In this document: in pieces, positions 1 to 32,320 of the stretch
How the letters are laid out: the number at the start of each line of letters is the position of its first letter
Numbering within the stretch: the stretch's first letter is position 1
Virus record (IMG/VR): IMGVR_UViG_3300050821_006736
Coordinates: 1-32,807 of that record
Strand: one strand, 5' to 3'
Length of the DNA stretch: 32,807 nt
Source of the DNA: a virus
Translations under genes and position numbers: made by a program
The notes under the pieces: model-generated
Databases searched by the model: none
What the model was told of the DNA's origin: nothing
What the model saw: the letters and a program-made list of their open reading frames with translations, nothing else

Positions 1-887
1 TCTTCCATCGACATGTCGTTCGGGTCTTTCGGCCCGGCTGGATTGCGCGCCTTGAGCGGGACAATCGGGTCCTGCCTTGGCTTTGGCGTGGGGGCTGGCG
101 GAGCTGCGAGTCGAGCGGCGATCTTGCCGACTTCGAAGACCACCATCGCCGGCCTCAACGCCGAGATACGGTCGTGCTCGTCCTGATTCTGGGCGAGGTA
201 GTAGGCGATTGCCGGACCATCTTCAGCTTCCAGAAGCGCCTGACCGAGAACCGGATTGGTGAAGAGGGTTTCCTCGCCGTAAACGACGTCCTCGAAATCC
301 GGGTGGTCGGTCTTGAAGGTGGCGGCCCGCTTCGCATAGGCGGCGGACGCTTCCTTCCAATTGCGCTCTTGTTCGGCCCTGGTCTGCTCGGCCTGCGCCT
401 CTGCCTGAACCACCTTCGCGGTGCGAGCTGCAACCCATGTCTCAAGCGCCTTGTCGTAGGCGTCCGGATCGTCGAAGTTGGCTCGCACGGGGCGGGCCTC
501 ATCTTCTTTCGGTTGTCCGGCTTCGACCAGCTTGGAGACGGTCTCCTGGAGCTTATCGAACCTTGCTAGGATGGCTTGTTCGCGCGCTTCGGCGGCTTGG
601 CGTCTGTTTCGCTCACGAGCAATTACCGCTCGTTGCTGCGGAGAGGTTTTATCCTTCTCCTCACCGGGTGCTTCAGATGGCGTCCCGTCTGCCTCGCCTT
701 CGGGTTTTTGATCCGAAGTGACTGAAGCATCCTCGCTAACCTCGGGCGTGTCAACAGTCTCGGCAGGAGTCTCGATTACCGGCATGTCGGACGTTGCCGA
801 AGTCGGTATTCCGGGGCCGCGATTCAGAGTGTCCGCGCCCGTAATCACGGGTGCGGGGGCGTCATTGGTCATTGGAGCCATCGGCAT
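1..887 (-). CDS. Scaffold-like head assembly protein, C-terminus beyond window
   Basis: The frame stays open from the ATG at 887 to the window edge, giving at least 295 residues, so the C-terminus is missing. The first ~75 residues are acidic and rich in Pro, Thr, Glu and Ser. They are followed by a charged, probably coiled-coil region (RERNRRQAAEAREQAI, then a run rich in Ala, Gln and Glu) and a more globular part. Position directly after the portal gene and this low-complexity helical composition fit phage scaffolding proteins; no catalytic motif is seen. The start overlaps the end of the portal gene by 26 bp. GAAGGA lies about 11 nt before ATG 887; in-frame ATGs at 881 and 872 are alternatives. 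The function is inferred from position and composition. Confidence 0.7.
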   Translation of the reverse strand, partial: MPMAPMTNDAPAPVITGADTLNRGPGIPTSATSDMPVIETPAETVDTPEVSEDASVTSDQKPEGEADGTPSEAPGEEKDKTSPQQRAVIARERNRRQAAEAREQAILARFDKLQETVSKLVEAGQPKEDEARPVRANFDDPDAYDKALETWVAARTAKVVQAEAQAEQTRAEQERNWKEASAAYAKRAATFKTDHPDFEDVVYGEETLFTNPVLGQALLEAEDGPAIAYYLAQNQDEHDRISALRPAMVVFEVGKIAARLAAPPAPTPKPRQDPIVPLKARNPAGPKDPNDMSME

Positions 888-3800
888 TAGGTGGTGTGTC
901 CTTCGATTCCTGTGGCTTGGAAGCTTCTATCGCCGCCATTCCAATCTCGTGGTTGCGCTGGCGTGCATCGCGGATTTCGGCAATGAAAGTATCGGCGACA
1001 AAGCGGGCCTGTTCAACGGCCAGTTTCTTGCCGGTTTCCTCGGTTTTGGCAATAATTCCAAGTAATTTTACCTCAAAATCTGCCGAAATCTTACTCATCG
1101 CAATCTCACGATCAGCGCCCTTGTCGTCGAGCGCCTTCATCGCTTGCTGAAGCTGCTGCTGTAGCTGCTTCGACTGCTGTTCGAGGTTCTGGATGAGGGC
1201 CTGGATCTGCGGTGGGATGTCTTTCAGGTCCGGTGTCAGCATGTTCGCCGGAATGGCCTTGGCAAGGCGGGCGGCAATCTTGTCGGAGCCGGGCCAATCC
1301 ATTTCGGCCGCGATCAGGTCCATCACCAGGGCCGCCGTGTTCGGCATCGCCTTGACGAACGCCATCATCGACTCAGCGCCTTCCTGACGCTTGGTCGCAT
1401 AGGACGGGCCGGCGTCGACCGTCACAGCCCATTCGGCGAAACCCGGATTGAAATAGCGCAGGACGCCCTTCGCGCTTTGGTTCTCCTGGTACGAGGAACC
1501 CAGCAGCGGATCGAGGGTGACGTTCTCCTCCTTGCCGTCCATGCCGAGGATGGTGATGATCTGGCGCCGGTTATAGACCTTGGGAATCGCGTCCACGATC
1601 TGTTTGCCGAGGAATTCGAGTGAGCGGCGGAAATTGTCGTAGTAGTGGAATGCGCCGATGTCGGTGCGGCGGCTCAGTTCCCGCAGCGCCTTGCCCGACT
1701 CGTCGAACATGCGCTCCTGCATGGTGGCGTCGAACCGGATGCCCGTCGTCGCCATCATGTTCTGCTGCGACTGCGCGAGCGCCGCGAGGATGCCGGTCGG
1801 TGCGTCGGGCGGAGGAACCCGCTGGGGCGGCGGCGATGGATGTCCGCTCACGTCGGTAGGCTTGTAGGTCAGGGCCGCTGTCGGAAGACGGTTGACATTC
1901 TTCCACTCTTTTTCGTGGCCTTCTAGTTGACCCTCCTCCATTATGTAGTGTGCTTTAGGTGCGAGGGCGACGTGTTCAGTAAGGAACGTGTTGTGGGTTG
2001 GAACCATAGCCTCGCCAGCCAGAAAGAGATGGCTGGGCGTGTCTACCATGATGCACTTAACCGGAACTGACGGAACACGTTCTACGGACTTGATCGTGAA
2101 TCTCTTCGTTCTACGCCATTGCTCCTGGCATCCGTTGAACTGCCTTCCGAGTTGGCGCTCCCTCTTGAACACCGGCATGTCGTACGGGGCGGTGAACGAG
2201 AATTGCCAGAGATCCTGTCCCTGCGAAAAATATGGATTTCCATTGTTGGCAAAGCGCGCCAACCGGCCCTTCCGCTTAAGCGAAACAGCCTTGATTCCTA
2301 GCGACCTGAGAAGCTCGGAAAACCCCTCGGCGAGGAGAGGTGTAATCGTGCTGAAGCTACACTGGCGTTTGATATCAATCGAGCCGTCAGTGTCCATCAG
2401 ACCGTGCAGCAGATCGAGACGCTGATCTCTCGATGCGCGGAGGTAGGACGCCGGAATGTGTTTGTTCCCAAGCAGCCCCATCTCCCGCATGACGCCCTTC
2501 ACGCCATAAACGGTAAATTTCAAAATCCGGTCGCCGTTCCCCCTCGGCTCTCCAGCATCCACACCGCGCCCGAGCAGATGACGCCGAAGCTCATCGATGT
2601 CGTCATCACCGGGGCTTACCTCCGGAACAATCGCATTTCCGTCCCCGAGCCACAGACCGAGAAAATACGGATCGAGCGGAAGATCGCACTCAGGAAGCTG
2701 AAGCGGCTTTGGCGTCATGACGTAATGCGTCTTTGGCCTTAACGCCTTGGTCTGTACCGTCTCGTTGCGCCACTCAAACCCAGCCGATATTCGTCCGGTA
2801 CGCGTCTCGACTGCCCACAGGTGCTCGGCATCGGCCACAATGCTGGAGCCGTCGTCGAACGTGATCCTGTAACACTCTCGGTGGACGTGGACCGGGCTAC
2901 ACCCGAGTACGGTGGCCGGTTCTCCATTCTCATTGAAAACGGTGTGGCCGGCCTCAATCTCGCCCATCGTAGTCCACCCATTTGGAGTGGGAACAGGCGT
3001 ATTTAGGTCTAGTGGAGCCCAATAATTATCCATACGCTGGGCATCTTTGGAGTCACGAATAATCCCGGAGTACGTAACCTTACCTTCTACGTCGATCTCG
3101 TCACCGATCACCTTTACGATCGGAACCCACTTGCCGATCCACTCCTTGCGCTCAAGGATTTCGATGGCGGTGGCCTTGTAATACATGACCGTAGGATCAA
3201 ACCCCTTGCGCTCGTCGAGCACACGGACATCGCCATTTTTCACCCTGCGCGCGGTCACTTCATCCAGTTCGTCGCGCCAACCGACATAGCCGTTGGAGAG
3301 CGAGACGAGTTCGCGCTCCTTCTCGACGATCTCATAATATTCCACGACCCGGATGCCGTCCTTCGTGCTCCAGGTTCGATAGCTCTCGCCACCGCCACCA
3401 ACTTCGAAGGGGATGAGTTGGGCCTTGGGATATTCGAGCTTGAACTGATCCTCGGGGATCATCTCGGCAACGAAGGCAAAGCGGCAATCGGAGCCGTCCG
3501 GCTCTTGGTGGTCGGGGTCAAGGTAGACAGTGAATGGATTGCGCACCCGCTTGATCACTAGCACCTGATCGAAGCTTTTGGGCGACTTCCACTCGGTCAG
3601 CAGGCGCATGTAGCCCCAACCCGAGGTGACGGCATCGTCGAACGAGCTGTCGTAGGCGATGTCGGCGTGGCTGTCCCGCTCGATACGACGGATCATGCCT
3701 TCGATCATCTGCGCCCCCTCCTTGATCGCGCCGGGGCCAAGGGGGCTGATGTTGATCTGGGGGCGGTTCTCGCGCGCCGGGTTGGTGACCTGATGGACGA

Positions 3801-4170
3801 AGGTCTTCATCCGATTGTTGGTCAGGCAGGGGCGGCGGTCGGTGGCGCGTTGGGCGGCGATGTCGGCCGGCCACTGATCGCCCCGCTTGAATTTGCGATC
3901 CTCGACGGCCGGCTTGCGGTTCTCGGCTTCGGCGGCGATGGATCGTTCCAGCCGCTTCCGGAGGCGCTCCAGGATCTCGGAATCAGCTTCGTCTGAGCCT
4001 TTGTCGTCATCCTTCTCGGCGGGGATGTCTGGTCCAACGGTATCGCCTTTGCCCTCAATAGCCCTGTTATTGGGGCCAAGCTTGTTCATACCAGCGGACG
4101 TCTCTGGCAAGGACAGCTTTCCGCTTTTCTTGGCGCGCGGAGGCGGAGGACTAAGAGGCTGATCGACCAT
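862..4170 (-). CDS. P22-like portal protein interrupted by a class 3 intein
   Basis: The precursor is 1102 aa. Removing residues 386-727 leaves a 760-aa portal, close to the P22 portal (725 aa). Portal proteins form the dodecameric DNA-entry ring at one head vertex and dock the terminase. N-extein landmarks are the FKRGDQW and RPCLTNN regions (about 95-120) and NPFTVYLDPD (211-220). The extein junction rejoins DNYWA to TFLTEHVALAPK, a conserved stretch in this family. The C-terminus (about 985-1060) is a Gln- and Lys-rich coiled coil. The ATG overlaps the upstream stop as ATGA. Portal identity is from recognised family sequence; splicing is inferred from intact intein motifs. Confidence 0.93.
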   Translation of the reverse strand: MVDQPLSPPPPRAKKSGKLSLPETSAGMNKLGPNNRAIEGKGDTVGPDIPAEKDDDKGSDEADSEILERLRKRLERSIAAEAENRKPAVEDRKFKRGDQWPADIAAQRATDRRPCLTNNRMKTFVHQVTNPARENRPQINISPLGPGAIKEGAQMIEGMIRRIERDSHADIAYDSSFDDAVTSGWGYMRLLTEWKSPKSFDQVLVIKRVRNPFTVYLDPDHQEPDGSDCRFAFVAEMIPEDQFKLEYPKAQLIPFEVGGGGESYRTWSTKDGIRVVEYYEIVEKERELVSLSNGYVGWRDELDEVTARRVKNGDVRVLDERKGFDPTVMYYKATAIEILERKEWIGKWVPIVKVIGDEIDVEGKVTYSGIIRDSKDAQRMDNYWAPLDLNTPVPTPNGWTTMGEIEAGHTVFNENGEPATVLGCSPVHVHRECYRITFDDGSSIVADAEHLWAVETRTGRISAGFEWRNETVQTKALRPKTHYVMTPKPLQLPECDLPLDPYFLGLWLGDGNAIVPEVSPGDDDIDELRRHLLGRGVDAGEPRGNGDRILKFTVYGVKGVMREMGLLGNKHIPASYLRASRDQRLDLLHGLMDTDGSIDIKRQCSFSTITPLLAEGFSELLRSLGIKAVSLKRKGRLARFANNGNPYFSQGQDLWQFSFTAPYDMPVFKRERQLGRQFNGCQEQWRRTKRFTIKSVERVPSVPVKCIMVDTPSHLFLAGEAMVPTHNTFLTEHVALAPKAHYIMEEGQLEGHEKEWKNVNRLPTAALTYKPTDVSGHPSPPPQRVPPPDAPTGILAALAQSQQNMMATTGIRFDATMQERMFDESGKALRELSRRTDIGAFHYYDNFRRSLEFLGKQIVDAIPKVYNRRQIITILGMDGKEENVTLDPLLGSSYQENQSAKGVLRYFNPGFAEWAVTVDAGPSYATKRQEGAESMMAFVKAMPNTAALVMDLIAAEMDWPGSDKIAARLAKAIPANMLTPDLKDIPPQIQALIQNLEQQSKQLQQQLQQAMKALDDKGADREIAMSKISADFEVKLLGIIAKTEETGKKLAVEQARFVADTFIAEIRDARQRNHEIGMAAIEASKPQESKDTPPNADGSNDQ
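1990..3015 (-). other. Class 3 intein with LAGLIDADG endonuclease, in portal
   Basis: This 342-residue intein is portal residues Pro386-Asn727. Block A is PLDLNTPVPTPNGW, with Pro rather than Cys/Ser at position 1. Block B (441-454) has His450 and Trp452; block F has Cys706 (VKCIMVD); block G is VPTHN followed by Thr728 at +1. Trp at B:12, Cys at F:4 and Thr at G:5 is the signature of class 3 inteins, which splice through the block F Cys and need no nucleophile at position 1. Two LAGLIDADG-type motifs end in FLGLWLGDG (503-511) and LLHGLMDTDG (587-596), with Asp510 and Asp595 intact. The endonuclease therefore looks active. Confidence 0.92.
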
Positions 4171-6374: not shown

Positions 6375-6580
6375 ATCACCTCTCCCGGTTCACACCCATC
6401 ATCGATCGCCCGCTGCAACGCCTCGATCGCTTCCTGCTTATCGTTGCGCCACTGAGCGCCGTCGACTTTTTCGATGATCACAAAATACTCCGCGCCGTCT
6501 TCATTGGCCATACTGATGCGGGCTGCGTCGACGCCTAGGACGGGAGACCAGTAGAAGAATTCGCTGATCACGCCATCCAT
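6356..6580 (-). CDS. Hypothetical protein following the terminase
   Basis: This 74-aa acidic protein is not recognised. It has a strand-rich first half and a helical end (KQEAIEALQRAIDDGCEPGE). It starts 13 bp inside the terminase gene, so it is likely coupled to it. It could be a short cytoplasmic accessory protein; there is no motif to say more. Confidence 0.6.
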   Translation of the reverse strand: MDGVISEFFYWSPVLGVDAARISMANEDGAEYFVIIEKVDGAQWRNDKQEAIEALQRAIDDGCEPGEVMWRSNC

Positions 6581-8589
6581 CCAGCCGGATCATCGCTCGC
6601 GCCGTAGCTGCGGTCGGCGGCGGGTCTCACGGTCGCGCGGGGTTCCTCGTAATCAAGCGCTGCTAGGCCAAATGAGTCAGAACCGTGTGAGGAGTTTGAG
6701 ACAAGATAAGCGCGGCCATCATCGCCACGGACGAAATAACATTCATCCCTATCGACGGTGAGATTGTAGGCGGGCTCTAGCTCGGTCTTCTCGCGCAAGT
6801 CGCGCCCGGTCGACCTTAACGCACTCCTTGCTGCATCTCGCGCCGAATTGCTGGTAGCATCCGAATTCCTTCCCGCATACGCGACATATGCAAGTGAATC
6901 GTGGCTCGGACTTGTGCTCGCTACGGTGCTCAAAGATGGGCTTAGCTTCGAAATTGCTTGGATGGTTGTTAAATGGATCTTCATCTGCGTGATGAACTTC
7001 ATAACCCTCCGGTATTTCACCATAAACAGCCTCGTACACCACCCGATGAAGGAGCACGGAACATCGCGATTCCTGGCCTCCGCCCCTAGGGTTGCCGAGG
7101 TAATAGCGTCCTTGAAGCCTAAAGACAGTGTCGCAGACCAAAACCCGAGGATGGTCAGGCCCAAGCTTTCTCGGGTCCAAAATTTTTCCCGGAAGCACGC
7201 ACAGTCGGCCGCCTCTATGAGGCCCCGGCTCGTAAAAAATCGGTGTTCTGGCGTGCACTTCACGCCCCTGACCGTCGCCCATTCGTCTGTCATCCGCACT
7301 ATTCCAGACCGAAGAATGCGGCGCGGTCCACAGGGTGTCAAGACATGATCATGAACAGAGAGATCCTGTACGTTCGTCCAGCCGACTGGGGTCAGCACCG
7401 ACGTGTCTCGGGCCAGACACCAATCGTGTTCTGGCCCCAATCCGATCTGCCGGTTGGCGTCGACCCGTTCGTGATAGGCCCCCAATGCCTCGCGCCCAGC
7501 CTGCGTTGCAGCGTCGTTGAACCAGCAGCGAGGGAACAGGCGGCGGGCGGCCTCGACACGGATCACCGCCGCACCTGGACCGCCGCCTTTGCGCACCCGC
7601 ACCCGGAAGTTGGCTTCCTTCAGGTGGTCGCTGAACTTCTTACCCGTCACGGCATTGCGGTGCGCGCCGTCGTGGGGCAGGACGCATTCGGCCTCGCCGT
7701 GGCCGCGCCGTCGCAGCTCGTTCACGTAGTAGCCCAACGGCTGACCCGACCCTTCGATGTAGTCCATGAATCGAAGCTGCTGGCGGATGCGCTGGGTGAT
7801 CCAGATCGTCATCGCATCGTCGATTCCGATGTCCCAATAGGCCTTGCGCTCCAGCAGGGGGTCATAGGCCAGATCGGTGATGCGGCCTTCCTGCTCGGCT
7901 TGGGCGAGGTGGTTGGCGAAATAGGCGCCGGCGACGACCGTGGCATATGCGCCTTCCCAGACGTGCTGATAGCTCGGCGAGTATTTCAGATCGTATTCGC
8001 GCTCCTCCTTCATTTCCTGTGGGAGGAAAGGGTTATCGCTCCAGTTTGTTTTGACGACAATGGATCTGTCCGGCGGCGGAATTCCGGGTGTACGGAACAG
8101 GGCGTCGACAGCATCCGACTTGCGGTGCGGGTTCCAGGTAAAGATGAGTTTCGATCCCGGCTTCCGGATCGTCGGTCGGAGAAGTTGAAGGCTGCGGGCG
8201 CTCATATTGTGGGCTTCCTCAACCCACACGAGGTCGAATCCCTCATAGGATTTGATGCTCTCGCTCGTCTGATTGTTCATTCCCTGGAAGACGATGCGAC
8301 CGCCGCCAGGGGTGCGGATCTCATCGTCCAAGACACGAAATCCTGGCGCTTTGAACTCCTCGATCTTGTCTTCGATGAGCTGCTTGGCGGACTCCCGCAG
8401 AGCCTTCTGCACCTCACGGGTACAGAGCACGCGGGTTCCGCGCTGCATGAAACTTTGCTCGACAGTGAATCCGGCGGCGAACTGCGATTTGGCGCCTGCA
8501 CGACCGCCGTAAATCCCCGCGTACCGGAATGGCTGTAGGAGCGGTTCGAACACCCTTGCGGTGGGGATGTTTAGCTTCTTTTCGCTCAC
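6568..8589 (-). CDS. terL: Large terminase subunit interrupted by an intein
   Basis: The precursor is 673 aa; without residues 391-632 it is 431 aa, a normal size for this packaging motor. The ATPase domain has Walker A YGGRAGAKS (27-35) and Walker B LVWVEEA (120-126). The nuclease domain has YWDIGIDDA with Asp253, and a C-terminal HDW/SSHGSD motif whose Asp638 is in the C-extein. The intein sits exactly in this motif, so the nuclease site is complete only after splicing. The GTG start at 8589 overlaps the stop of an upstream 9-codon reading frame as GTGA. It pumps DNA through the portal encoded downstream. Confidence 0.95.
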   Translation of the reverse strand: MSEKKLNIPTARVFEPLLQPFRYAGIYGGRAGAKSQFAAGFTVEQSFMQRGTRVLCTREVQKALRESAKQLIEDKIEEFKAPGFRVLDDEIRTPGGGRIVFQGMNNQTSESIKSYEGFDLVWVEEAHNMSARSLQLLRPTIRKPGSKLIFTWNPHRKSDAVDALFRTPGIPPPDRSIVVKTNWSDNPFLPQEMKEEREYDLKYSPSYQHVWEGAYATVVAGAYFANHLAQAEQEGRITDLAYDPLLERKAYWDIGIDDAMTIWITQRIRQQLRFMDYIEGSGQPLGYYVNELRRRGHGEAECVLPHDGAHRNAVTGKKFSDHLKEANFRVRVRKGGGPGAAVIRVEAARRLFPRCWFNDAATQAGREALGAYHERVDANRQIGLGPEHDWCLARDTSVLTPVGWTNVQDLSVHDHVLTPCGPRRILRSGIVRMTDEWATVRGVKCTPEHRFFTSRGLIEAADCACFREKFWTRESLGLTILGFWSATLSLGFKDAITSATLGAEARNRDVPCSFIGWCTRLFMVKYRRVMKFITQMKIHLTTIQAISKLSPSLSTVASTSPSHDSLAYVAYAGRNSDATSNSARDAARSALRSTGRDLREKTELEPAYNLTVDRDECYFVRGDDGRAYLVSNSSHGSDSFGLAALDYEEPRATVRPAADRSYGASDDPAGWMA
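6694..7419 (-). other. Intein in terminase, endonuclease displaced to another frame
   Basis: This intein is terminase residues Cys391-Asn632. Block A is CLARDTSVLTPVGWTNV, block B is GVKCTPEHRFFTSRG with Thr446 and His449, block F is around YNLTVDRDECYFV and block G ends AYLVSN before Ser633. The penultimate residue is Ser rather than the usual His. Between blocks B and F the zero-frame protein (about 464-604) resembles nothing, while the -1 frame of the same DNA encodes an HNH endonuclease. Splicing joins HDW to SSHGSD. The splicing domains look functional, but the noncanonical Ser631 makes this less certain than for the portal intein. Confidence 0.88.
6749..7282 (-). CDS. HNH homing endonuclease nested out of frame in the terminase intein
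   Basis: The open frame is 177 aa, in the -1 frame relative to terL and wholly inside its intein. The recognisable part is about residues 29-163: a strand region with VFRLQGRYYLG, LLHRVVYEAVYG (His79), EGYEVHHADEDPFNN (His97, His98, Asn105/106), then a zinc-ribbon-like C-x-C-x2-C and C-x3-C (Cys131-154). This is the HNH fold of phage homing endonucleases. Residues 1-28 are a shadow of intein block B. Candidate starts are ATG 7282, GTG 7258 (AGGGG 6 nt upstream) and TTG 7180. Either it is a separately translated nested gene, or two compensating indels moved it out of the intein frame. Confidence 0.82.
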   Translation of the reverse strand: MGDGQGREVHARTPIFYEPGPHRGGRLCVLPGKILDPRKLGPDHPRVLVCDTVFRLQGRYYLGNPRGGGQESRCSVLLHRVVYEAVYGEIPEGYEVHHADEDPFNNHPSNFEAKPIFEHRSEHKSEPRFTCICRVCGKEFGCYQQFGARCSKECVKVDRARLAREDRARARLQSHRR

Positions 8590-22915: not shown

Positions 22916-24319
22916 ATGCCGGTCTCTCAGGTTGTCTTCGTTCCACCGTTCACCCCCGCCGACGTGATCACGATGCAACAGCTTGCCGGTATCACGCCCG
23001 CCGGACCTCCCGGCCCGACTCCGGTCAACGACTTCCCAGCCGATCCGACTCAGGCTCCCACAAGTCCCGAGAATAGCCAGATCATGCTGTTCAACGACAC
23101 CATCGTCGGCGAGCCCTACTTGAAGGACAGCAGCGGCACGATACACACCCTCGTATTGGCGCCAGGGAACACCGCGGCGAATCCGCTCACGACCTACATG
23201 GTCAACGGCTTCCCGGCGCATGGCGGCGCGATAGGATCGGATCAGCCGGTCCTCCTCCTGGTCCGCCAGGGCGGCGTCTATGTGCAGTTCTCCGGCGGCG
23301 AGTGGCAACAATTCGACGTGGGGACGGGATCGATGGAGCCGGCCCAACTCCCGGCCCCTGCGGCTCCCGGAGGCCCACCGACGCAACCCGCACTCCCGAC
23401 CCTCCCCACGCCATCGTCCGTGGCTCCCGGATCGTCCGGGAACATCATTACATGCGGCGTCGGCCAACCCCTGGCGACCCTCTCCGCGGCGATCCCGACC
23501 GCACAGGCTGGAGACACCATCCAGCTTGTCGCCGGGACCTACACCGACACACCGCCGGCATGGACGGTCCCTCTATTGATCGATCTGGGAGGCGCCACGC
23601 TCAACGCGACCGGACAGACGGCCAACCTCGCGCGTGGCAAGGGCCTTCTGGTCCCGTGCGCCGACAGCATCATCAGGAACGGGACCATAACCGGCGTCGC
23701 GATGGATCAGCCGACCGGCGAACTCACCTACGCGATTCGGCCGGATGCTGGCCTCGGCTACCTCACCATCAGCGACATGCAGATTCACGCCTGCCAGGGC
23801 GCGGTTGGCGAGGGCGGGATCGGCGCCTGCGTCATCACGCTCACCGACTGCGACATCAGCGGCAATGGCCTGACATCGAACAACGGGACGGCGCTGTCCC
23901 ACAACCTCTATGTCGGCGCGGATTGCATCACCCTGACGCTGAACAATGTCACTTCGACCGGCCCGACCGAGGGCCATGCGATCAAGTACCGCGGCCCGCA
24001 GCTTGCCGTCTCGGGCGGCAGCTTCGCGTCCTCGCCCGGTAAGCCGTTCGATCTACCCAACGGCGGGTCCGTGCCGTTCACGATTACGGGAGCGTCTATC
24101 GTGAAGAACGCCGACGACGTGGACCACGGCATCATCGGCTACGGCGAAGAGGGCGCGACCAACGGTACGGCCGGCGGCTCGATCAGCGATGGCTCGATCT
24201 CCGCGGCATGTCCGAACCCCTACATGACCGGCCCTGGCGGGACGATCACGATGGTCGGCGTCACCCTGACCGGGAACACGATCACCGCGCAGGGCGGCCT
24301 TACGCTGGTTGGCTCGTAG
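22916..24319 (+). CDS. Right-handed beta-helix tail-spike/tail-fibre-like protein
   Basis: This 467-aa protein has an N-terminal part (about 1-135) with an FxxxGxPxLxD-like strand region, a Pro-rich linker (about 140-172), and a C-terminal domain (175-467) made of short repeated strands with Thr, Gly and Asn turns (GQPLATLSAAIPTAQAGDTI; YLTISDMQIHA; ITLTDCDISGNG), typical of parallel beta-helices of pectate-lyase-like tail spikes. It may bind or cleave host surface glycans. It lies alone between two terminators. No strong ribosome site is seen (AGG about 8 nt upstream), and its promoter is unclear. Confidence 0.78.
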   Translation: MPVSQVVFVPPFTPADVITMQQLAGITPAGPPGPTPVNDFPADPTQAPTSPENSQIMLFNDTIVGEPYLKDSSGTIHTLVLAPGNTAANPLTTYMVNGFPAHGGAIGSDQPVLLLVRQGGVYVQFSGGEWQQFDVGTGSMEPAQLPAPAAPGGPPTQPALPTLPTPSSVAPGSSGNIITCGVGQPLATLSAAIPTAQAGDTIQLVAGTYTDTPPAWTVPLLIDLGGATLNATGQTANLARGKGLLVPCADSIIRNGTITGVAMDQPTGELTYAIRPDAGLGYLTISDMQIHACQGAVGEGGIGACVITLTDCDISGNGLTSNNGTALSHNLYVGADCITLTLNNVTSTGPTEGHAIKYRGPQLAVSGGSFASSPGKPFDLPNGGSVPFTITGASIVKNADDVDHGIIGYGEEGATNGTAGGSISDGSISAACPNPYMTGPGGTITMVGVTLTGNTITAQGGLTLVGS

Positions 24320-30979: not shown

Positions 30980-31140
30980 AAGTCACCTACCAGGATTGCT
31001 CCGCCTGCGTTAACCGGGTTCTGATCGAGGAAGATCCGGTCAGATGGATATGCAAGGCGCAGGGATTCCTGGTCGGCAACAAGGTCATCAACTGCAAAAA
31101 GTTCAAGCAGAGAAAATCTCTCACTTCAGGTGCGAAATAA
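30976..31140 (+). CDS. Small Cys-containing protein (54 aa)
   Basis: The product begins MKVTYQDCSACVNRVLIEED and has a C-x2-C and a basic end (NCKKFKQRKSLTSGAK). ATGA overlap with the previous gene. Its last 20 bp overlap the end of the convergent leftward gene. Confidence 0.6.
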   Translation: MKVTYQDCSACVNRVLIEEDPVRWICKAQGFLVGNKVINCKKFKQRKSLTSGAK

Positions 31141-32302
31141 AATACACCAGCACCCCTGAGAGCACCGACGACACCAGCCCGACCACCATCAGCATCAGCG
31201 GCATAGACAGGCCATCTCGCCCGCCGTCCGCAGCGGATTGTCTCTCAAGCATCGATAGACGGGCTTCGACAGCCTTGAAATTGGCGTCCACGATTTCGAT
31301 GGTGGCAAACCGGGCCTGCTGATCGCTTACCATTCCGCGCAGCTCGTTCAGGCCCTCTAGCCTTTTTTCTGTGGCCCCCTCTGCTTTGCTGTTATGCATA
31401 CAGAATCCGCCGGCTATATAGGTAGACGTGGAAGTTCCTAGTGTGGCAATTGTGTCGATTCCGGCACCCTCTATGGATGTAACGATTACGTCTCGGTGCC
31501 ACCCCCCAATAGGACGCCCCTCCCATACCGACCTCGCCTTGGCCAATAATCTTTGCGGACGGATGCTTCCAAGAAGGAATAAAATCTCGTTTCTAATATT
31601 TATCTGCCACTCGACGGTTGGTTTTGCGTTTAGCGACAAGCGATAATTTGGTTTTTTATGTATGGTGTGATAAGCGCTAACGCGCTTAGCTAATGATTCC
31701 GAAATTTTATCGCATACGATACCTTCCGTTTGAACCACGCCAAGCCTCGCTCGGCCATTGCGGTCACTTTTAAAGGTTAGGCACCCCTCTCCGTCAAAAA
31801 TTCCGGCAAGCCACCCGGCCTCCCACGAATTATCAACATCCCATACGTCGTAAGCTCTCATAACAGCGTCGCCAACACGTATAAGGCTAGCTTTGACCCA
31901 TCTCCATTTAGAGTCGTGGTCTTGGCGATAAACTAACCATGGATGATCATAGGTACATCTCACAGATCCCGCTTGTGTGTTCACCTGAAGAAGCGGAGCT
32001 TTCTCTATGCCATTTGAAGTGACAATTGCCATTCTGTGTAGCCGACCGCGAGAAGCAATCATTCCGGATTGTCTAGGCGCAGGCTCTTCATCAAAGGCTA
32101 TCAATTCATCCCCAACGGATAGAGATCCCGCCGCCCTCCACACTAAGTCGGCGCATAACACTGGAGTGTCAGACGAAACGCAAACCGCCTTCTCAGCGGC
32201 CTGAAGCGCAATTTCTGCGCGGTCCTTCTGGGCTGAAATTTGCTCGGTGAGACGTAGCGAGAGCGCGTCGATTCTATCACGCGCGATGTCGTCGATTGCC
32301 AC
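31121..32302 (-). CDS. Coiled-coil membrane protein interrupted by an intein
   Basis: The precursor is 393 aa. The N-extein (40 aa) is helical, ending EIALQAAEKAV; the C-extein (89 aa) begins SKAEGATEKRLEGLNELRGM, continues as a coiled coil and ends in a transmembrane helix (MLMVVGLVSSVLSGVLVYFI, about the last 25 residues). Joined, the 129-aa protein matches a common phage family with an AAEKAVSKAE-ATEKR coiled coil and C-terminal membrane anchor, often near tail or lysis genes; its function is not known. GTG 32302 has GGAGCG 6 nt upstream; GTG 32314 is an alternative. It overlaps the convergent gene at 31140 by 20 bp. Confidence 0.88.
   Translation of the reverse strand: MAIDDIARDRIDALSLRLTEQISAQKDRAEIALQAAEKAVCVSSDTPVLCADLVWRAAGSLSVGDELIAFDEEPAPRQSGMIASRGRLHRMAIVTSNGIEKAPLLQVNTQAGSVRCTYDHPWLVYRQDHDSKWRWVKASLIRVGDAVMRAYDVWDVDNSWEAGWLAGIFDGEGCLTFKSDRNGRARLGVVQTEGIVCDKISESLAKRVSAYHTIHKKPNYRLSLNAKPTVEWQINIRNEILFLLGSIRPQRLLAKARSVWEGRPIGGWHRDVIVTSIEGAGIDTIATLGTSTSTYIAGGFCMHNSKAEGATEKRLEGLNELRGMVSDQQARFATIEIVDANFKAVEARLSMLERQSAADGGRDGLSMPLMLMVVGLVSSVLSGVLVYFISHLK
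31391..32182 (-). other. Intein with single-motif LAGLIDADG endonuclease
   Basis: 264 residues, Cys1 to the final Asn, followed by Ser. Block A is CVSSDTPVLC, block B has RCTYDHPWLVY, and the C-terminus is GGFCMHN with the usual His-Asn. One LAGLIDADG motif is clear (EAGWLAGIFDGEGCLT), and FLLGSIRPQRLL matches the conserved later segment of single-motif, dimer-forming enzymes. This differs from the two-motif endonuclease in the portal intein. All splice residues look intact. Confidence 0.92.
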
Positions 32303-32320
32303 CGCGCGCTCCACTTTGGT

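Follow-up and report, generated by a model that had tools for sequence, protein, structure and literature searches.

Inteins found at different sites of one host protein are often highly divergent (PMC2814812, drawn on in part, as are the other accounts cited here). The Prp8 inteins occupy seven sites in one host family, group by site, diverge between sites and were taken as independent invasions (PMC6805012). Phage inteins are described from mycobacteriophage TerL, portal and terminase-like proteins; those of terminase sit within the ATPase domain and were likewise taken as independent invasions (PMC5050341). The haloarchaeal MCM inteins occupy several close sites (a to d) at the catalytic centre of a replicative helicase and carry a LAGLIDADG endonuclease (PMC10643990). 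For the non-allelic inteins of RNA polymerase, ThrRS and ClpP, which are nearest relatives, ectopic movement was proposed, between genes and with no DNA similarity of the flanks; the same account expects such events to be very rare, as cutting at another place meets no flanking homology, and names similarity of non-allelic flanks as the sign they would leave (PMC1635734).

The locus described here shares features with each of these systems. As with MCM and Prp8, several sites are used in one host family, the MCM sites also being close together and their endonuclease also of the LAGLIDADG type, and as with the mycobacteriophage cases the carriers are phages. Unlike MCM, the host is a helical membrane protein placed in the lysis module, and the inteins at its different sites are mutual closest relatives in the full-length tree, which also sets them apart from the Prp8 inteins. 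Ectopic movement is proposed as for RNA polymerase, ThrRS and ClpP, but within one gene family and with measurable flank similarity. The reading we favour, at a probability of about 0.6, is that one intein lineage relocated by ectopic homing within a repeat-built phage lysis-module gene, splicing and cutting being predicted from sequence. Such a multi-site pattern of related inteins in one host family is unusual against the published cases, and a literature search, which had most subscription journals outside its scope and is weak evidence, found no report of inteins in this host family and none in which a lineage of inteins had changed site inside a single gene. By what route inteins get to new sites has long been debated; a repeat-built host would supply the missing homology, and the question is testable here in small genes with eight alleles, four sites, empty hosts holding all four positions and endonuclease-free versions. 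The finding also links the lysis module with a protein family common in uncultivated phages, and extends intein hosts beyond enzymes.

The window, that is, the whole stretch of DNA analysed, is an IMG/VR virus record of 32,807 bases, and its ORF at 31121-32314 on the minus strand, stop-free throughout its 397 aa, contains the following features:

31121..32314, minus strand: intein-bearing host gene of 397 codons and a stop, with a GTG start
32183..32314, minus strand: N-extein, 44 codons, C-terminal end ...QAAEKAV
31391..32182, minus strand: intein, 264 codons, Cys1 to His263-Asn264, precursor residues 45-308
31844..32182, minus strand: predicted N-terminal part of the Hint splicing domain, intein residues 1-113 (AlphaFold secondary structure and superposition; boundary approximate)
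intein residues 77-80, within the N-terminal Hint part: block B TYDH
31523..31843, minus strand: predicted homing endonuclease domain, residues ~114-220, one alpha-beta-beta-alpha-beta-beta-alpha unit
31784..31810, minus strand: LAGLIDADG-type motif LAGIFDGEG, residues 125-133, with acidic D130 and E132 (alignments)
31391..31522, minus strand: predicted C-terminal part of the Hint splicing domain, residues 221-264 (model secondary structure)
31388..31390, minus strand: Ser +1, predicted host-supplied splicing nucleophile (translation, allele alignment)
31124..31390, minus strand: C-extein, 89 codons
31337..31387, minus strand: conserved family motif KAEGATEKRLEGLNELR (family KAExAxEKRFESVNEFR; family alignments)
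31136..31204, minus strand: membrane helix predicted at the C-terminal end (hydropathy), residues 107-129 of the extein, then a 4-residue tail

The intein begins with CVSSDTPVLCADLVWR and ends with TYIAGGFCMHN, then Ser, and its flanks joined without it give the host protein. The sequence-only reading had placed an intein at 31391-32182, and these boundaries stand, with Cys1, a His-Asn end, the fold and invariant catalytic residues; the junction it gave, AAEKAV/SKAEG (a slash marks the insertion point here and below), is exact, the insert beginning with Cys and finishing with His-Asn before Ser. Its host size of 129 aa has to be corrected, as the joined exteins give 133 aa. It had also called the intein a rare one that is larger than its host; the size relation is right (264 versus 133 aa), but such cases are not so rare, since 11 of the 69 inspected rows are complete with an intein longer than the extein, five of these 11 in the window's host family. 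Misassembly of the gene was considered and rejected, a second IMG/VR contig of 8.1 kb carrying an identical gene.

From its sequence and predicted structure, the element is confirmed as a class-1-type intein with a putative single-motif LAGLIDADG homing endonuclease, an assignment made because of the residues invariant in 41 sequences, the PDB inteins matched and the fold. C1, H80, H263 and N264 are invariant in 41/41 aligned sequences (the window and forty relatives); block B, with the intein motif TxxH (PMC6805012, in part), reads TYDH in the window, with Thr changed to Asn in the relatives L003, L005, L161, L162 and L163. The window intein ends MHN/S, with His-Asn invariant in 41/41, and the +1 residue is Ser or Thr in every allele of the host (coil) family whose C end is complete. 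A profile search against PDB sequences matched solved inteins, such as Mxe GyrA (E 1.3e-7) and PI-PfuI (1.4e-7), and also LAGLIDADG enzymes. The AlphaFold model of the window intein has a mean pLDDT of 95.3, and its VIA superposition on the Ssp DnaB mini-intein gave Z 18.8 and rmsd 1.9 over 133 residues. The match to Pfam Intein_splicing (PF14890) stays below the gathering score (17.2 versus 35.8 bits); this score is a curated threshold and no defining intein feature, and the other features carry the assignment.

The endonuclease domain was delimited from the secondary structure of the model, the LAGLIDADG matches and the natural deletions in L193 and L251. D130 is invariant in the 41 aligned sequences and E132 is present in at least 90%, the element order alpha-beta-beta-alpha-beta-beta-alpha occurs at residues 120-220 of the model, and Foldseek returned a weak match to I-OnuI variants over 95 columns. 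An HNH endonuclease label (PHROG 5046, 6.6e-7) was rejected, the motif actually being LAGLIDADG-type. For the near-palindromic target that a homodimer would lead one to expect, the insertion sites showed no excess of palindromy (9th to 74th percentile). The G+C content is 49.1% in the window intein, 58.7% in the host exons and 58.8% in the record, and the best matches of the intein in cultured phages lie in Gordonia portal (33%) and Mycobacterium terminase (32%) genes. Taken alone, the window intein is unremarkable for its kind, and what is new is the behaviour of its lineage.

The host family was recovered with a back-translated motif in 47 viral stretches and, with a second motif that excludes the intein site, in at least 120; the second motif was found in four stretches among 84,980 bacterial and archaeal genomes, namely two from Micromonospora and one MAG each of Sphingopyxis and Anaerolineales. 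The members are alanine-rich and mostly helical-looking, with a usual C-terminal hydrophobic segment where the contig covers it (by eye), and the majority are intein-free, inteins being sporadic in the family. A family HMM built without the window host and without L026, its closest intein-free relative (51% protein identity), matches the joined extein across the junction as one uninterrupted domain at E 1.3e-25 (Z=10,000), and the intein-bearing hosts L236, L237, L238, L240 and L278 match a family model at 1e-10 to 1e-39. In the model of L026 (mean pLDDT 86.9), helices are predicted at residues 10-75, 79-106 and 111-134, and the window site maps between residues 48 and 49, in the middle of the first helix (pLDDT about 98). 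The window host thus agrees with the earlier proposal of a helical (coiled-coil), tail-anchored protein outside the usual intein-host enzymes, its helix and membrane segment being predicted. A Pfam scan of the window host matched no family, known holin and spanin families included, and PHROGs gave scattered weak family matches, with a spanin in one of 28 members at 0.008. Searches by tblastn with the joined extein, L015 and L271 against 50,697 phages, and with a piece of L271 against plasmids, returned no match; low-complexity filtering may mask such matches, and absence from phages or plasmids is therefore not claimed.

The neighbourhoods of the relatives were scanned in 100 of 211 adjacent ORFs (75 downstream and 25 upstream; the 211 picked comprised 108 upstream and 103 downstream), hand-trimmed in favour of longer ORFs, and 100 of 157 randomly drawn ORFs lying 4-9 kb off served as the control. 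Among the best 25 of the 39 Pfam families matched, those of the adjacent ORFs include Peptidase_M15_4 (5), Amidase_2 (4), VanY (4, possibly the same proteins as the Peptidase_M15_4 matches), Rv2525c-like (3), GH108 (2), M23 (2), GH25 (2), SLT (1) and Phage_lysozyme (1), versus one NlpC/P60 among the best 25 of 28 families in the control. The host gene of L161 comes directly after a series made up of a Holin_2-3 holin (1.5e-10), an endolysin (PHROG 669, 3.9e-44), an ORF that is hydrophobic near its N-terminus and one that is spanin-like (PHROG 812, 0.005). Because of these hydrolase-rich neighbours relative to the control and the gene order of L161, the host family is placed in the lysis module; the placement comes from the relatives, the window record ending 493 bases upstream of its host gene, so that the upstream neighbours fall beyond the record end. 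With at least 120 viral stretches and lysis genes often adjoining, the suspicion that the host matters more than its missing annotation implies is borne out. Our guess is that it is a holin-like or regulatory membrane protein.

Alleles were sought by intein profile searches and by a coding pattern of the intein C-terminal end, the latter recovering ten contigs, nine in the host family and one, L004 (IMGVR_UViG_3300033407_000117), with an amidase gene. Four insertion positions were observed in the host family:

site A, AQQ/TA: L162, L163 and L193
site B, AVQ/TA: L003 (L042 is the same contig) and L005 (truncated where the contig ends, with just the N side present)
site D, AV/SKAE: the window
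site E, KRFE/SVNEFR in L161 and KRFD/TVNEFR in L251/L252/L255

The sequence-only reading had implied one special site, a view that these four positions of related inteins contradict. The intein-free L053 carries all four positions in one protein, with spacings of 15, 10 and 12 residues and T, T, T and S at +1. When joined, the flanks of L042/L003 align gaplessly across the junction with L028, which has no intein (475 bp, 88.4%), so that L028 shows an exact empty site; their alignment with L029 spans 592 bp at 85.5% and contains one gap. For the window site, no near-identical empty allele was found, the DNA of L026 giving no alignment across the site. The endonuclease has evidently been lost in two alleles, once within a single phage lineage, as L193 and L163 are 96.6% identical over 3.7 kb and L193 shows an in-frame loss of 267 bp of the endonuclease, and the intein of L251/L252/L255 is a 177-aa form without the endonuclease part. 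The full and endonuclease-less members of the former pair lie at L163:4001-4771 and L193:4001-4504, with the junction WLSGM/WEGHS in frame. The amidase intein of L004, 46% identical to the window intein, is a sister or nested relative of the coil group; unlike the coil sites, its insertion point is of the classical kind, in an enzyme's conserved HxDPG segment. Its gene is followed by a membrane/coiled-coil gene, and a search beside the amidase with the coil family HMM gave no hit.

Conservation at the window site was assessed in 129 distinct rows gathered by the pattern KRF[DE]xVNEFR, with no intein site required; the pattern's own columns are circular in these rows, and the conservation of the KRFE/S site was therefore not read from them. 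The motif counts of the first scan were discarded as a conservation measure, its pattern having itself demanded AEKAVxKAE. The flanking columns show A in 129/129 and V in 101/129 before the site, and K in 124/129, A in 124/129 and E in 114/129 after the +1 residue, with AEKAV varying to ADRAV or AKEAV among the relatives. The +1 column itself is among the most variable (A33, T27, S14, L12 and V10 of 129), and Ser, Thr or Cys stands at +1 in 41/129 rows at the window position, 24/129 at AVQ/TA and 83/129 at KRF[ED]/S. A 20-bp segment with the site at its centre has a mean pairwise DNA identity of 0.586, where values along the stretch run from 0.45 to 0.65 (93 rows). The expected strong conservation of the site thus stands for the flanking A, K, A and E but not for the +1 residue, Ser or Thr being limited to 41/129 rows, and the DNA around the site is conserved above average without being the peak. 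A similar contrast at +1 is described for MCM-d of haloarchaea, where empty alleles mostly have Pro and occupied ones Ser (PMC10643990, in part).

The relationships of the inteins bear on whether one lineage moved. The 38-row full-length tree joined the seven coil rows in one clade (93/82; 95% of 200 bootstrap trees), followed by the amidase intein L004 (98/88) and then by four ParB-type inteins (100/99), and the 29-row full-length tree recovered the coil clade at 83/85 and in 82% of bootstrap trees. The clade fails when the data are split by domain: splicing columns alone gave an unresolved group of coil inteins plus L004 (91/85), with the coil clade in 17% of bootstrap trees, and endonuclease columns alone gave it in 2%. 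AU tests rejected a window+ParB clade (p-AU 0.009) and just rejected window+L004 (0.043). The E-site pair+ParB (0.089), the E-site pair+L004 (0.122) and L163+L004 (0.141) were not rejected, and neither was a grouping of the two A alleles (0.156). The coil-family inteins as a single lineage are hence supported, not proven. Each of the four positions could instead have been invaded independently, out of a pool of related inteins in phages, with the host family merely a good landing place, common, permissive through Ser or Thr at +1 and conserved; the single-domain trees, which leave the coil inteins unseparated from L004, and the cross-host groupings that survive the AU tests agree with this, and the published multi-site hosts Prp8 and mycobacteriophage TerL were so interpreted (PMC6805012, PMC5050341, PMC2814812, in part). 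We consider such independent invasions credible but unlikely, as all seven coil rows are joined in the full-length trees and window+ParB is rejected, and as different-site inteins are described as divergent in the parts of the published accounts drawn on, whereas the endonuclease-bearing inteins of the coil family are the window intein's nearest relatives at 46-59% identity. The portal and TerL inteins of the record itself were rejected as a source of the window intein, blastp giving no significant match.

The DNA around the sites was compared gene-to-gene over 40 bases across each site with shifts allowed. At a one-codon shift, D and B agree at 21/40 bases, the 99.3rd percentile (11 without the shift), and D and E, with L161, at 18/40 (15 without); B-A pairs agree at 19 and 20, B-E pairs at 18 and 16, and D-A pairs at 14 and 16 with a one-codon shift, and E-A pairs at an ordinary 9 to 13 unshifted, against a mean of 10.7-12.1 of 40 for all position pairs and 29/40 and 23/40 for the allelic pairs E-E and A-A. 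In a joint permutation that drew one random position per gene in four genes and also allowed the best of three shifts, the observed sum of 106 was reached in 2.7% of 20,000 draws (P 0.027), and in 2.5% (P 0.025) when restricted to positions permissive in having Ser, Thr or Cys. The greater likeness of the sites than of random coil positions, at P about 0.025, is suggestive, the pairs being non-independent and some repeat-unit likeness being expected anyway. Repeats also raise the prospect that the four sites are a single one displaced by indels of repeat units and that the intein never moved; host length is variable, repeats blur the alignment, and AQQ/TA and AVQ/TA share the register AAxxxxx/TA besides their 19-20 common bases. 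This is distinctly unlikely, since the empty L053 holds AQQ-TA, AVQ-TA, AV-TKAE and KRFD-SVNEFR side by side, and KRFE/SVNEFR falls in a non-repeated, near-invariant motif, so that the window site and KRFE/S differ in place and merging is conceivable only for AQQ/TA and AVQ/TA. Usefulness to the phage was weighed as well. A lysis timer, in which the long host helix would form only after splicing and slow or signal-dependent splicing would set when the lysis-module host becomes active, is very unlikely in our estimate; if true, a selected delay would explain one lineage at many host positions and once in the module's amidase. That the intein is a beneficial regulator, blocking the host helix and hence lysis action until splicing, with the delay selected, appears extremely unlikely: the site lies mid-helix in the predicted helix 10-75 of L026, the family's neighbours point to a lysis module, and the intein next in relationship, that of L004, sits in a lysis enzyme of the amidase type, but the sporadic occurrence, with most family members lacking an intein, the endonuclease loss and the low G+C fit a selfish element.

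Under the favoured relocation by ectopic homing, the precursor would be one 397-aa chain whose intein adopts its Hint fold inside a segment due to become a single long helix. To judge from the anatomy, the intein would excise itself by means of Cys1, the His of block B, His263-Asn264 and the host Ser +1 and leave the 133-aa host uninterrupted. The endonuclease would cut intein-free alleles and repair would copy the intein in, the exact empty site at hand being that of one relative and not of the window. One putative lineage would in this way have reached at least four positions in the host family, the positions themselves being observed. As the helix units are similar and mostly of 11 residues, cutting in an adjacent unit, or a switch of template there, may find partial flanking homology, with splicing probably confined to sites whose +1 residue is Ser or Thr. 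The window site, one codon before the in-phase position, fits this expectation, because the in-phase Lys is near-invariant and Ser or Thr is needed at +1. Some copies would then drop the endonuclease and retain the splicing domain, as seen in the shortened alleles. The direction and number of moves have only eight distinct alleles behind them.

Three inteins are present in the 32.8-kb phage fragment. The portal-protein intein, at 1990-3015 on the minus strand (342 aa) within a P22-type portal protein (865-4170, minus strand), begins with PLDLNTPVPTPNGWTTMG without an N-terminal Cys, ends MVPTHN/T and has a LAGLIDADG_3 match; by its signature, we take it to be a class 3 intein. The large-terminase intein, at 6694-7419 on the minus strand (about 242 aa) within the terminase at 6571-8589 (minus strand), runs from CLARDTSVL to YLVSN/SSHGSD, with a Ser-Asn end instead of His-Asn, and no endonuclease family was found for it. 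Elsewhere, the amidase-type lysis enzyme of L004, also listed as L282, is interrupted at GHVHASGN/THWDPG, and the corresponding position in L006 is occupied by a more distantly related intein. Related inteins forming the next tree group occur in the ParB-like proteins of L164, L165, L166 and L178 (host name read from the flanks), inserted before TQP[VI]VT and, where the N side is present, after DG[FY]. A DELIAFD motif is common to a large phage intein group, with 302 stretches confirmed as relatives, whose hosts, read from the flanks, look portal, RecA-like, ribonucleotide reductase-like and methylase-like. In addition, the window contains at 22916-24319 on the plus strand a 467-aa ORF of coding-like base composition with no PHROG or Pfam match.
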